Part shown: piece after piece, positions 48,701-52,669 of the stretch | Position numbering within the stretch: the first letter of the stretch is position 1 | Layout of the letters: the number at the start of each line of letters is the position of its first letter | NCBI GenBank assembly: GCA_030530145.1 | Contig: JAUMVN010000002.1 | Span: 124,001-188,000 of the forward strand | DNA: 64,000 nucleotides | Reading direction: 5' to 3' | Source: Coriobacteriia bacterium | Lineage (GTDB): Bacteria; Actinomycetota; Coriobacteriia; Coriobacteriales; Atopobiaceae | Notes under the pieces: model-generated | Database searches by the model: none | The model's input: the letters and a program-made list of their open reading frames with translations, nothing else | Told to the model about the DNA's origin: nothing | Program-made: the position numbers and the translations under genes

Positions 48701-49543
48701 ATGGGCAAACCGACCAACCTAACCAGGAGAGAAGCGCTCAGGCTCGCCTCGGCCGCGTGTCTTTGCGCAGGTGCTGCTGGGTGTTCCGCGTCGTCGGCGA
48801 GCAGCTCATCCGCTTCCGGCTCCGGCACCCTTAAGGTGGGCGTGCGCTCCGACATAGCTGGCATGAGCCAGCTGAACGAGTCGAACGGCAAGTACTACGG
48901 CCTCGAGGTCGACATCGCCGAGGAGATGGCCTCGCGCATGGGCTACGCCGGCTGCGAGTACTCGACCGTCACGCCCGACTCGCGCAAGGAGGACCTGCTC
49001 GACGGCACCGTCGACTGCCTCGTGGCCTGCTACTCCGCGAGCGACAAGCGCCGCGAGAACTTCGACTTCTCGCCGGCCTACTACGAGGACCACATCGTCC
49101 TCGTGTGCGAGAACAGCTCGCTCATTACTAAGGTCGAGGACCTCAAGGGCGGCGTCTTCGGCACGCTCGCCGGCGCGAACACGGCCGCCTACCTGGCCAA
49201 CAATCTCTACCAGCGCGGCTTCACCGACGGTAAGGTGCTCACTGCCAATTCCGACAACACCGATGTCTCCTTTGACACCTGGCATCTCTACGAGTACGAG
49301 AGCTACTCCGCTCTCTCCGACGCGCTCGAGTGCGGCGAGGTGGACGCCATGGCCGCCGACGGCGCCATCGCGCGCGCCTACCTCAACGACGAGCGCTCCA
49401 TTCTCTCTGACTACCAGGCGGCCGACCAGGACTATGCCGTCGCCACGCAGAAGGGGAGCGACCTGTCGCAGAAGGTCGCCGACGCCATCCAATCGATGCT
49501 CGATGACGGCACCATCGCCGGCCTCATCGACAAGTGGGACTAG
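48701..49543 (+). CDS. Solute-binding lipoprotein, family 3 (amino-acid type)
   Basis: 280 residues. The N-terminal signal ends in the lipobox AAGC (Cys28), after TRREALRL. Then comes a Ser linker and the type II periplasmic-binding fold (LKVGVRSDIAGMS, GLEVDIAEEMASRMG, DFSPAYYEDHIVLV, LIDKWD). Such proteins normally deliver amino acids to an ABC permease. No permease or ATPase is adjacent. Instead the double-dCache MscS gene starts 9 bp after its stop. TGGAG precedes the ATG at 48701. Confidence 0.9.
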   Translation: MGKPTNLTRREALRLASAACLCAGAAGCSASSASSSSASGSGTLKVGVRSDIAGMSQLNESNGKYYGLEVDIAEEMASRMGYAGCEYSTVTPDSRKEDLLDGTVDCLVACYSASDKRRENFDFSPAYYEDHIVLVCENSSLITKVEDLKGGVFGTLAGANTAAYLANNLYQRGFTDGKVLTANSDNTDVSFDTWHLYEYESYSALSDALECGEVDAMAADGAIARAYLNDERSILSDYQAADQDYAVATQKGSDLSQKVADAIQSMLDDGTIAGLIDKWD

Positions 49544-49552
49544 GGGGACACG

Positions 49553-52500
49553 ATGTCATCCAGGCTCAAGAAGAAGTCAGCCGCACTCGCCGTCGTCATC
49601 GTGGCCGCGCTCGTGGCCGCGGGCGTCGTGCTCGGGCGCATGCAGCAGCGTCTCTCGTACAGCTCCTACACGACCGAGATCGAGCAGTGCCGCTCCGAGC
49701 TCCCGGAGCTTCTCGACGAGGCGTCCGACGAGACGACCCAGAACACGCAGATCTACGACCGCATCTACCAGTCAAAGGCCGAGAGCGTCGCCTTCATGGC
49801 GCAGAACGACGCGGGATACGAGGCCACGGACGCGAAGATGAAGGAGTACAAGGAGCTCCTCGAGGTCGACAACGTGCTCGTGGTCAAGAAGGACGGCTCC
49901 GTGGTGGCCAAGGCGGCCGACACCAAGGCGAACTTCTCATACGCGCGCTTCAACGCCCTCAAGGAGGTCTTTACCACCGGCGAGGCCTCCGACGCGGTCG
50001 AGGTCGAGCTCCCCGACCAGGACTGGCTCATGCGCTACTACGCTGCCAAGGTGGACGACGAGACCATGGTCGTCGTCGAGCAGAACCCCTCTGAGCTCCG
50101 TAGCCTCATCGAGACCTCGGGCTCCACCGCGAGCGTGCTCAAGAACATCACGGTCGGCCAGAACGGCTACCTCATCGCCGTCTCGGCCAAGGACCACCTG
50201 ATCACCTATCACCCCGAGAGCGACCTCATCGGCACCGACGCCTATGACGACGGCATCGACGCGGCCGACCTCGAGGACGGCAACTACTTCCACGGCACTT
50301 TCCGCGGCCGCGACCTCTACTGCGGCGTCTCGTACGTTGACGACACCTACTACATCTTCGCCGTGCCCGAGGCCGAGAGCCTCGCCTCGCGCAACGCGAC
50401 CGTGGGCGTCATCCTCTTCGTCTTCGCCCTCGTGGCGGCCTGCGTGGCGCTCTACGGCATCTTCGTTATGGGCGACGACGAGCGCACCGGCTCCGACTCC
50501 GAGAAGTTCCGCCCGCTGGGCACCCTGCGCTACAACCGCACCATCGGCAAGAAGGCCGCCGTGCTCTCCGTCGTGGGCGTCGTCGCCGTCGTCGCGGTGA
50601 GCTTCTACATGCAGACCCTCTTCGCGCTCTCCACGCAGTCCATCACCAACTCGAGCCGCGCGGACGCCATCGCCGAGACCCTCGAGCGCAACTCCGAGCG
50701 CGCCGACGAGCTCAAGGACGAGTACAGCACGCGCTATCTCTCCAAGTGCCGCGTGGCTGCCCACATCATCGACGCGAACCCCGAGCTCGCCACCAAGGAG
50801 AAGCTCCAGGAGCTCGCCGACGTGCTGCAGATCGCGGCGGTCTACGTGCTCGACGGCAACGGCGACATGATCGCCTCGTCCACCCCGGTCAAGAGCTACA
50901 GCCTCTCGACCGACCCCGAGGAGAGCTCCTACGAGTTCCGCGAGCTTCTCGGCGGCAAGGAGGAGCTCGTCCAGGCCGTCTCGACCAATGATTCCACCGG
51001 CGAGGCACAGCAGTTCATCGGCGTGGCCACCCACGACGAGCGCGGTTACGCGAGCGGCATCGTGCAGATCGCCGTGCGCCCGACGCGCCTGACGAACCTG
51101 CTCAAGTCCGTGACCATCGACCATGTCCTCGACGGCGTGAAGGCGGGCGCCTCCGGCTTCGCCTTCGCCGTGTCCAAGGCGGACAACACGATCGCCTATT
51201 ACCCGAACGACAAGGTCCAGGGCAAGGACGCCGAGGCCGCGGGCCTCACGGTCGACCAGCTCAAGGACGGTTTCTCCGACTACGTCACCGTCGGTGGCCA
51301 GACCTACTTCGCCAACTGCGTCGAGACGGACGACTACTACGTCTTCGTCGCCGGTCCCGAGGGCGAGCTCATGGCCGAGCGCGCGCCTCTCACCGTGGCC
51401 ACGGGCATCGTCGCCGCCGTCTGCCTTGCGGTCGTCTTCCTCGTGCTCTCGCTCGACACGAAGAAGGGCGCCGAGCAGGCCGAGGCCCTCGAGGCCGCTG
51501 CCGCCGCCGCGCCGCGCGACCCTGACGGCCGCGTCATCGACGTCACCCTTGCCGACGGCCGCGTCAAGCGCAGCGAGTCGGCCGTCTCGCGCTGGCTCAA
51601 CCGTTCCTTCTCGTGGGCCGAGAAGTCCCCCGAGCAGAAGCTCGGCACCGTCGTGCGCTGGTTCGCCGGCGTGGGCGTCTTCCTCGTCTGCCTCGCCGTC
51701 GTCCTCAAGGACCAGGCCTTCGACGAGAAGTCCGTCTTCTCCTACATCCTCAAGGGCGGCTGGGTCCACGGGCTCAACGTCTTCGCCTTCACCGCCGCGC
51801 TCATGTACGCCTGTGTGGCCGTGACCGTGGCGACCGTCGTCCGCTGGCTGCTCCGCCTGCTCTCCGGCGCCCTCGGCGCCCAGGGCGAGACGGTCTGCCG
51901 CCTGCTCTCGAGCGCGGTCAAGTACACCGTCCTCATCTGCATGCTCTACTGGTGCTTCGGCGTCCTCGGCGTGGACACGGCGACCCTGCTCGCCGGCGCC
52001 GGCCTCATCACCCTGGCCGTCAGCCTCGGCGCCAAGGACCTCGTGACCGATATCCTCTGCGGCCTCTTCATCATCTTCGAGGGCGAGTTCCGCGTGGGCG
52101 ACGTCATCCAGGTCGGTGGCAACTCCGGCACCGTCATGGAGATCGGCGTGCGCACGACGAAGATCAACGACGGCAACGGCAACGTTCTCGTCCTGCGCAA
52201 CTCCGGCATCTCCAATGTCCTCAACAAGACCAAGATGGACTCCTACGCCACGGTCAACGTCATCCTGCCGTGTGGCGAGAGCCTGCCCTACGTGGAGAAC
52301 ATCCTGCAGAAGGAGCTCCCGCGCGTGAAGCGCCGCGTCCCGGCCATCATCGACGGGCCTTTCTACAAGGGCGTGGTCGACCTCACCGACTCCACGATGA
52401 CCATTCGCGTCGTCGCCACCTGCGCCGAGAAGGACCGCGGCGGCCTCGAGCGCAGCCTCAAGCGCGAGATGTCCATCCTGCTGGCCCGCAACAACGTGGC

Positions 52501-52669
52501 CCCCTACACGGTCTCCTACGACCACGAGGAGGAAGAGAAGACCGTGGGCGAGAAGATCGAGGAGGCCCGCGAGCTGCGCCAGGCCGACAAATTCGCCGAC
52601 GAGCAGACGAAGGCCGCCTCCGAGCTCGGCAACGAGGGCGCCGGCGCTCCTCCGGCGCCTCCGGCCTAA
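49553..52669 (+). CDS. Double dCache-like sensor fused to an MscS channel
   Basis: 1038 residues. A membrane helix (about 9-28) is followed by a first extracytoplasmic sensor (about 30-275; ITVGQNGYLIAVSAKDHLITYHPESDLIG is the dCache-type C-terminal strand region). Helices lie at about 283-305 and 333-353. A second similar sensor (about 355-615; ASGFAFAVSKADNTIAYYP) and another helix (about 617-640) follow. The MscS part from about 700 has helices near 705-725, 740-765 and 785-805, then the pore helix and beta domain (LAVSLGAKDLVTDILCG, EGEFRVGDVIQVGG), and a charged tail. It looks like an ion/osmolyte channel gated by ligand as well as tension. Cotranscribed with the solute-binding lipoprotein. 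The fusion is read directly; gating is inferred. Confidence 0.85.
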   Translation: MSSRLKKKSAALAVVIVAALVAAGVVLGRMQQRLSYSSYTTEIEQCRSELPELLDEASDETTQNTQIYDRIYQSKAESVAFMAQNDAGYEATDAKMKEYKELLEVDNVLVVKKDGSVVAKAADTKANFSYARFNALKEVFTTGEASDAVEVELPDQDWLMRYYAAKVDDETMVVVEQNPSELRSLIETSGSTASVLKNITVGQNGYLIAVSAKDHLITYHPESDLIGTDAYDDGIDAADLEDGNYFHGTFRGRDLYCGVSYVDDTYYIFAVPEAESLASRNATVGVILFVFALVAACVALYGIFVMGDDERTGSDSEKFRPLGTLRYNRTIGKKAAVLSVVGVVAVVAVSFYMQTLFALSTQSITNSSRADAIAETLERNSERADELKDEYSTRYLSKCRVAAHIIDANPELATKEKLQELADVLQIAAVYVLDGNGDMIASSTPVKSYSLSTDPEESSYEFRELLGGKEELVQAVSTNDSTGEAQQFIGVATHDERGYASGIVQIAVRPTRLTNLLKSVTIDHVLDGVKAGASGFAFAVSKADNTIAYYPNDKVQGKDAEAAGLTVDQLKDGFSDYVTVGGQTYFANCVETDDYYVFVAGPEGELMAERAPLTVATGIVAAVCLAVVFLVLSLDTKKGAEQAEALEAAAAAAPRDPDGRVIDVTLADGRVKRSESAVSRWLNRSFSWAEKSPEQKLGTVVRWFAGVGVFLVCLAVVLKDQAFDEKSVFSYILKGGWVHGLNVFAFTAALMYACVAVTVATVVRWLLRLLSGALGAQGETVCRLLSSAVKYTVLICMLYWCFGVLGVDTATLLAGAGLITLAVSLGAKDLVTDILCGLFIIFEGEFRVGDVIQVGGNSGTVMEIGVRTTKINDGNGNVLVLRNSGISNVLNKTKMDSYATVNVILPCGESLPYVENILQKELPRVKRRVPAIIDGPFYKGVVDLTDSTMTIRVVATCAEKDRGGLERSLKREMSILLARNNVAPYTVSYDHEEEEKTVGEKIEEARELRQADKFADEQTKAASELGNEGAGAPPAPPA

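Follow-up and report, generated by a model that had tools for sequence, protein, structure and literature searches.

An orphan family-3 solute-binding lipoprotein and an MscS-type channel protein with two dCache sensors form a conserved gene pair in Coriobacteriia

The window analysed here is a stretch of 64,000 nucleotides from a Coriobacteriia bacterium of the Atopobiaceae (GenBank assembly GCA_030530145.1, contig JAUMVN010000002.1, positions 124,001 to 188,000 of the forward strand). It contains a gene for a family-3 solute-binding protein (SBP) predicted to be a lipoprotein, followed by a gene for a 1038-residue protein joining two extracytoplasmic sensor domains to an MscS-type channel module. 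Reading of the open reading frames (ORFs) placed the SBP gene on the forward strand from an ATG at 48701 to 49543 and, after 9 bp, the channel gene on the same strand from an ATG at 49553 to a stop at 52669, in agreement with a first-pass annotation made from the letters of the window. Genome comparisons indicated that the linkage between the two genes is far beyond chance, and that they form a conserved two-gene system with near-obligate co-inheritance. We moderately favour the hypothesis that the two proteins make up one receptor-channel system, in which the SBP would bind aspartate or glutamate and dock on the sensors, and the sensors would set the gating of the pore.

A scan of 85,000 genomes using the channel alone as a query returned 48 loci, spanning Coriobacteriia (Senegalimassilia, Enorma, Collinsella, Gordonibacter, Eggerthella, Enteroscipio, Raoultibacter and Olsenella), Lachnospiraceae and their neighbours, and Bifidobacterium. 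The SBP gene was found immediately 5' of the channel gene at 46 of the 48 loci; one of the other two shows the 3' part of an SBP gene (its last codons) at a contig edge, and the other has a broken channel. The gap between the SBP stop and the channel start was 2-22 bp (median 14; 43 loci measured), and the two genes overlap in diverged Lachnospiraceae pairs. In the relatives, the gene at this position encoded a protein 47-62% identical to the window SBP. No other neighbour was conserved, the next-best cluster being present at 14/49 loci once clusters overlapping the SBP or channel genes were set aside. No kinase was present among the conserved neighbours, and no permease or ATPase gene of an ATP-binding cassette (ABC) transporter was conserved within about 6 kb of the pair across the 48 loci. 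An ABC-transport link of the SBP was rejected on this last ground, and the earlier proposal of an orphan lipoprotein partnered with the channel is borne out by the survey.

The co-occurrence of the two genes was counted with SBP and channel profiles across 298 evenly sampled Coriobacteriia genomes. Both were found in 39 genomes, a channel match only in 3, an SBP only in 1 and neither in 255. The channel-only matches corresponded to a sensor-less MscS (G221) and to diverged double-sensor proteins devoid of an SBP (G277 and G234); the SBP-only genome (G227) encodes a truncated SBP remnant with no channel nearby. This pattern indicates that the SBP-channel unit is gained or lost as a whole. The only other genome of the window's genus in the comparison had neither gene. 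The pair was rarer elsewhere: it was detected in 2/151 Bifidobacteriaceae, 348 Lachnospiraceae gave a handful of close full-length matches, and 341 genomes drawn from the same class gave one strong full-length match. Copies of the channel or the SBP that were truncated or broken by internal stops were present at L069, L092, L159 and L158 (the last an SBP remnant only). Assembly errors may account for some of these, but their presence in several genomes suggests that the pair is often lost.

The channel protein (49553..52669) was assigned from its ORF, Pfam domains and matches in structure databases. Pfam MS_channel_2nd (E 3e-13) and MS_channel_1st (E 1.9e-8) both scored above their cut-offs, and residues 779-985 aligned to the MscS channel of T. 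tengcongensis (3udc, E 2e-31). The beta domain detected by MS_channel_2nd covers residues 829-891 (52037..52225), and the alignment to 3udc places the C-terminal alpha/beta domain at residues 892-985 (52226..52507). MS_channel_3rd was found in 26/42 family members and was below significance in the window protein, where the alignment to 3udc covers the C-terminal vestibule domain up to residue 985; the MscS module was found in all 42 members by Pfam. The protein thus combines a pore-lining last transmembrane helix followed by a beta domain with a C-terminal alpha/beta vestibule domain, as expected for the MscS superfamily, and the complete MscS module reported in the first-pass annotation is confirmed by Pfam and by the alignment to 3udc.

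Family-averaged hydropathy predicted eight transmembrane helices. TM1 (residues 9-27, 49577..49633) has a positive-inside flank and precedes sensor 1; TM2 (residues 282-300, 50396..50452) and TM3 (residues 335-353, 50555..50611) lie between the two sensors, and TM4 (residues 615-633, 51395..51451) follows sensor 2. The channel module contains TM5 to TM8 (residues 700-845, 51650..52087), with TM5 at residues 700-718, TM6 at 745-763 and then two helices in the channel core; according to the hydropathy and the alignment to 3udc, the last is a pore helix like TM3 of MscS. The topology predicted from the sequence has the N and C termini inside and both sensors outside. A juxtamembrane segment at the junction between TM3 and sensor 2 (FYMQTLFALS, residues 351-360, 50603..50632) was nearly invariant in alignments across Actinomycetota and Bacillota, and a similar MQ was found at the equivalent place before sensor 1. 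This segment is probably a signal-transmitting junction.

Sensor 1 (residues 31-280, 49643..50392) and sensor 2 (residues 354-612, 50612..51388) were identified as internal repeats of each other by tblastn. Sensor 1 was modelled alone with AlphaFold (predicted local distance difference test score, pLDDT, 87.9) and searched with Foldseek against the PDB, and sensor 2 was judged from a model of the tandem. The top fold matches of sensor 1 were the dCache chemoreceptor domains of PctA (E 9e-10), PscC and PctB, and those of the tandem were the amino-acid chemoreceptor domains of Mlp37, CtaA and PctC, with a structural alignment spanning residues 359-607. Both models displayed a long N-terminal helix and two PAS-like subdomains, and as modelled both sensors have the dCache fold. 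The dCache-like assignment made earlier was therefore upheld by structure prediction and fold search, and the possibility that these regions fold as something other than Cache domains failed. Pfam dCache_1 (PF02743) matched residues 405-599 of sensor 2 (E 1.5e-8) with 35 bits, under the curated cut-off of 45 bits, and no Pfam Cache match was obtained for sensor 1 of the window protein; dCache_1 matches were present in 41/42 family members at E<=0.01. We take the dCache assignment from the models and not from the Pfam score. Template modelling scores against dCache structures in the PDB were moderate and root-mean-square deviations large over whole domains, which fits a differing orientation of the subdomains; we therefore take these comparisons as a fold assignment and not as evidence for a ligand.

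The window SBP (280 residues, 48701..49543; alternative GTG start at 48686) contains both a Pfam SBP_bac_3 domain (E 3e-23) and a lipoprotein signal, with a lipobox AAGC at residues 25-28 (48773..48784) in which G27 and C28 were nearly invariant in the SBP alignment. Its nearest solved structures were PEB1a (2v25) of Campylobacter, which is an aspartate/glutamate-binding protein (PMC6069109), and amino-acid SBPs. In M. tuberculosis GlnH, the backbone of aspartate is contacted by S164, R169 and D250 and its side-chain carboxylate by R147, W232 and T162, and the set of side-chain-contact residues is common to SBPs of the same specificity (PMC6069109). The equivalents in the window SBP, assigned by spacing, are S112, R117 and D220 for the backbone and R95, Y202 and C110 for the side chain. 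S112, R117, D220, R95 and Y202 were identical in 31/31 aligned SBPs; position 110 was C in 24, T in 6 and A in 1 of them. At the residue level, the window SBP is thereby predicted to have the backbone Ser/Arg/Asp set and the side-chain-carboxylate Arg of the PEB1a/GlnH type, and the diverged linked SBPs of L096, L097 and L108 retain R95, R117 and D220. The ligand is most likely aspartate or glutamate from outside the cell; the conserved residues strengthen the amino-acid-type ligand first guessed for this protein and narrow it to acidic amino acids.

In a tree of SBPs, the channel-linked proteins clustered with PEB1-like SBPs not linked to a channel (support 98). A PEB1-like paralogue is encoded in the window's own genome, within an intact importer operon made of an ATPase, an SBP and two permeases (locus L147), and the channel-linked SBP therefore appears to be a distinct, specialised copy. 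Together, the grouping in the tree and the importer operon of the paralogue suggest that the linked SBP once belonged to an importer and was then recruited by the channel. Two linked SBPs differed at their N terminus. At L094 (G625:C73, 400-1155), a membrane-anchor-like segment replaces the lipobox, and the channel retains the sensor-1 motif described below. At L106 (G452:C31, 4976-5770; Lachnospiraceae), the SBP has a signal peptide but no lipobox cysteine, suggesting that some linked SBPs may lack a membrane tether.

Sensor 1 contained a signature of the SBP-linked channels. In the window protein, this motif reads NFSYARFNALK (residues 127-137, 49931..49963). The pattern [DNQ][FY]xxxR[FYW][NR]xL[RK] was found in all SBP-linked channels, including the diverged ones, and was missing from each of about 14 double-sensor MscS relatives that have no SBP (L065, L066, L092, L093, L095, L098-L105 and L109); a background of 884,305 residues from other translated frames gave 0 matches. 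In this count, seeming exceptions corresponded to loci too short to include an SBP (L014, L079 and L080) or to near matches with Q or H (L031, L033 and L090/L107), and duplicate or truncated loci were resolved by hand (L079 = L096, L080 = L097). Four diverged channels are accompanied by a diverged SBP (L094, L096, L097 and L108), and sister contrasts were observed between L108, which has both SBP and motif, and L065, which has neither, and between L096/L097 (both) and L095 (neither); the channel tree was a quick one, in which the window's own channel (L001) stands by mistake as a standalone row, an error that leaves the conclusions unchanged, and the motif counts ignore phylogeny. In the sensor-1 fold, the motif is located on the first helix to follow strand two of the distal subdomain, perhaps near the position of ligand contacts in chemoreceptor dCache domains, and may accordingly serve in docking, in ligand binding or in both. 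Once the contribution of the MscS module was removed, distances between SBPs correlated with distances between sensors (partial r 0.37 for sensor 1 and 0.49 for sensor 2, not corrected for phylogeny). This co-divergence lends weak support to an SBP-sensor partnership.

Based on these data, we propose the following mechanism. The lipoprotein, lipid-anchored to the outer face of the membrane, would close on an extracellular acidic amino acid, most likely aspartate or glutamate. The closed SBP would then dock on the paired dCache sensors, possibly via a surface that includes the RFNxLR helix of sensor 1, and the resulting change would reach the MscS pore module by way of TM1-TM4 and the linker, altering its opening. 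One purpose could be to release or balance solutes such as acidic amino acids in line with the outside level. This is plausible because two reports describe MscS-type channels exporting glutamate in Corynebacterium and Bacillus methanolicus (PMC7835871, PMC12541555). Docking, ligand identity, the direction of gating, the permeating solute and the purpose are each what we infer. In its most far-reaching form, a new class of ligand-gated MscS-type pore controlled from outside by a two-part receptor (an Asp/Glu-loaded, lipid-anchored SBP on a tandem dCache), the proposal has about even chances of being correct.

Several observations weigh against this proposal. The equivalence with the GlnH residues was set by spacing and not by superposed structures, and the diverged linked SBP of L094 is devoid of the amino-acid-binding residues. 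The two lines of evidence for a contact also differ: the co-divergence points to sensor 2 (partial r 0.48 for sensor 2 given sensor 1, 0.02 for sensor 1 given sensor 2, with kinship ignored) while the motif points to sensor 1, and both may contribute. Double-sensor MscS relatives encoded without an SBP exist, so such sensors can work without one, and the channel module could be purely tension-gated. Sensor 1 has invariant polar residues of its own (R132, R161, Y163 and D168) and might therefore bind a ligand directly. That the sensors themselves bind the ligand, the SBP being a scavenger or concentrator that hands it to sensor 1 without stable docking, is in our view unlikely. It would agree with the direct binding of amino acids by chemoreceptor dCache domains of the same fold, with the invariant charged residues R132, R161 and D168, and with the double sensors retained by SBP-less relatives. 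The sensor profiles aligned without confidence to solved dCache_1AA domains. Against this reading, the aromatic/Arg/aromatic/Asp ligand motif typical of amino-acid-binding dCache domains could not be recognised in either sensor when the alignment was inspected by eye. Moreover, a mere scavenger is not expected to track the channel and the sensor motif so strictly in loss and gain.

MscS channels as a class are tension-gated, and by sequence the pore module studied here is an ordinary MscS. The SBP and sensors might then tune the threshold or adaptation of a channel opened by tension only, for example an osmotic safety valve set to outside solutes. We regard this as a serious contender, if somewhat short of even odds; it overlaps with the ligand-gated receptor-channel proposed above and differs in that ligand alone would never open the pore. 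The genome has two other MscS genes, leaving this channel free to specialise, but eight predicted transmembrane helices and about 600 extra sensor residues far exceed the needs of an osmotic valve. It is very improbable that the SBP works for an ABC amino-acid importer whose genes lie elsewhere, its position beside the channel being an old operon accident. The genome does encode several family-3 SBPs, and a related SBP belongs to at least one complete ABC importer; that importer operon already contains its own SBP, though, and the channel-linked SBP is lost with the channel (39 genomes with both and 1 with a remnant among 298), no ABC gene being conserved as a neighbour. Unlike the paralogue locus L147, the pair has no permease and ATPase in its operon.

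Every component of the proposed receptor-channel belongs to a known family, and the new element is the channel output of SBP-to-sensor signalling. In LuxP-LuxQ of Vibrio, a periplasmic binding protein reports its ligand via a dCache-type extracytoplasmic domain. This mechanism resembles the one proposed here in that a separate binding protein acts through a dCache-type domain; LuxP, however, comes from another binding-protein family, and LuxQ is a histidine kinase and not a channel. The pore helix, beta domain and C-terminal domain are homologous to those of the MscS superfamily (3udc; E. coli MscS, YbiO and MscK). MscK and MscM have large N-terminal extensions of other kinds, and we know of no characterised MscS member with Cache sensors or an SBP partner. 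The bCNG channels combine an MscS-type pore with a C-terminal cytoplasmic cyclic-nucleotide-binding domain. They share with the window protein an MscS pore joined to ligand sensing, which in the window channel is extracytoplasmic and in two parts; no Pfam match to a cyclic-nucleotide-binding domain was found in the window channel protein at E<=1.

Together with LuxP-LuxQ, the nearest precedent is GlnH-GlnX-PknG of mycobacteria and other Actinobacteria, in which an orphan family-3 SBP lipoprotein with an Asp/Glu site also lies beside a two-sensor membrane protein without an ABC partner, and GlnH with GlnX is proposed to signal to PknG (PMC6069109). For GlnX, four-helix-bundle sensors are predicted, and signalling there leads to the kinase PknG (PMC6069109), whereas here the sensors are dCache domains and the output, an MscS channel, is in the same polypeptide; the operon of the window pair encodes neither four-helix-bundle sensors nor a PknG kinase. 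In the prokaryotic glutamate receptor GluR0, a family-3-type binding fold is likewise coupled to an ion channel, but there the binding domain and the K+-channel pore make up one fusion protein, with no dCache, MscS or separate lipoprotein (PMC13099474). A dCache domain also serves an ion channel in the alpha2delta protein of animal voltage-gated calcium channels (PMC4822843); that channel is unrelated and has alpha2delta as an auxiliary subunit, whereas the dCache domains described here are built into the pore protein. A 2016 census of Cache domains listed second-messenger enzymes, phosphatases, cyclases, kinases, chemoreceptors and transcription factors as outputs, with ion channels only of the alpha2delta type (PMC4822843). 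Our literature search, with subscription papers outside it, found no description joining MscS with a Cache or SBP partner.

There is a real chance that the pair founds a new class of ligand-gated channel. If the proposal is correct, this would be, by the literature searched, the first MscS-family channel signalled by a partner SBP, a channel counterpart of LuxPQ and GlnH-GlnX, and prokaryotic Cache sensors would gain an ion channel among their known outputs. The textbook force-from-lipid MscS scaffold would appear adapted to chemical signalling in a branch of gut bacteria, the likely cue being acidic amino acids. As a genetically defined two-protein system, the pair would make chemical and mechanical gating of one pore directly comparable.

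RNA folding revealed a hairpin on each side of the pair, both on the forward strand. The upstream hairpin (48586..48629; -37.8 kcal/mol, z -7.7) lies between an NlpC/P60-type gene and the lipoprotein gene and probably separates the pair from upstream transcription. A terminator-like hairpin with a U tract (52735..52778; -36.3 kcal/mol, z -5.8) is located 3' of the channel gene, as the first-pass annotation had reported for position 52735. With these flanking hairpins, the pair looks like a closed two-gene unit. A sigma-70/terminator scan that permits short loops only made no call at the locus; both hairpins were missed because of this loop limit. The gene for a Kup K+ importer downstream, from which a turgor theme had been drawn, is real but lies beyond the terminator. 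Kup matches were found at 0/48 related loci; since Kup is not conserved beside the pair, the turgor theme is unsupported and the link was rejected. PADLOC returned zero matches for the SBP or the channel protein, and an anti-phage role of the pair was rejected on this basis. Upstream, an ordinary operon on the reverse strand (41394-45053) encodes a MacB-type permease, an ABC ATPase and an HlyD-family adaptor.

Three diverged loci had further signalling genes next to the channel gene. At L093 (G336:C19:2000-18000; 3608-6295 and 6525-9596), a hybrid histidine kinase that has a receiver domain and family-3 SBP domains of its own is followed by an SBP-less double-sensor MscS gene, possibly an independent link of SBP sensing to this type of channel. 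At L099 (G532:C105:13000-28000; 2699-9483), the genes after a diverged sensor-MscS gene, in the same orientation, encode an SBP of the PnrA/Bmp type and a hybrid histidine kinase, which suggests that channels or kinases of this kind may also have partners from other SBP families. At L108 (G191:C25; 4919-6034), a gene encoding a GGDEF domain lies immediately 3' of the diverged SBP-channel pair.

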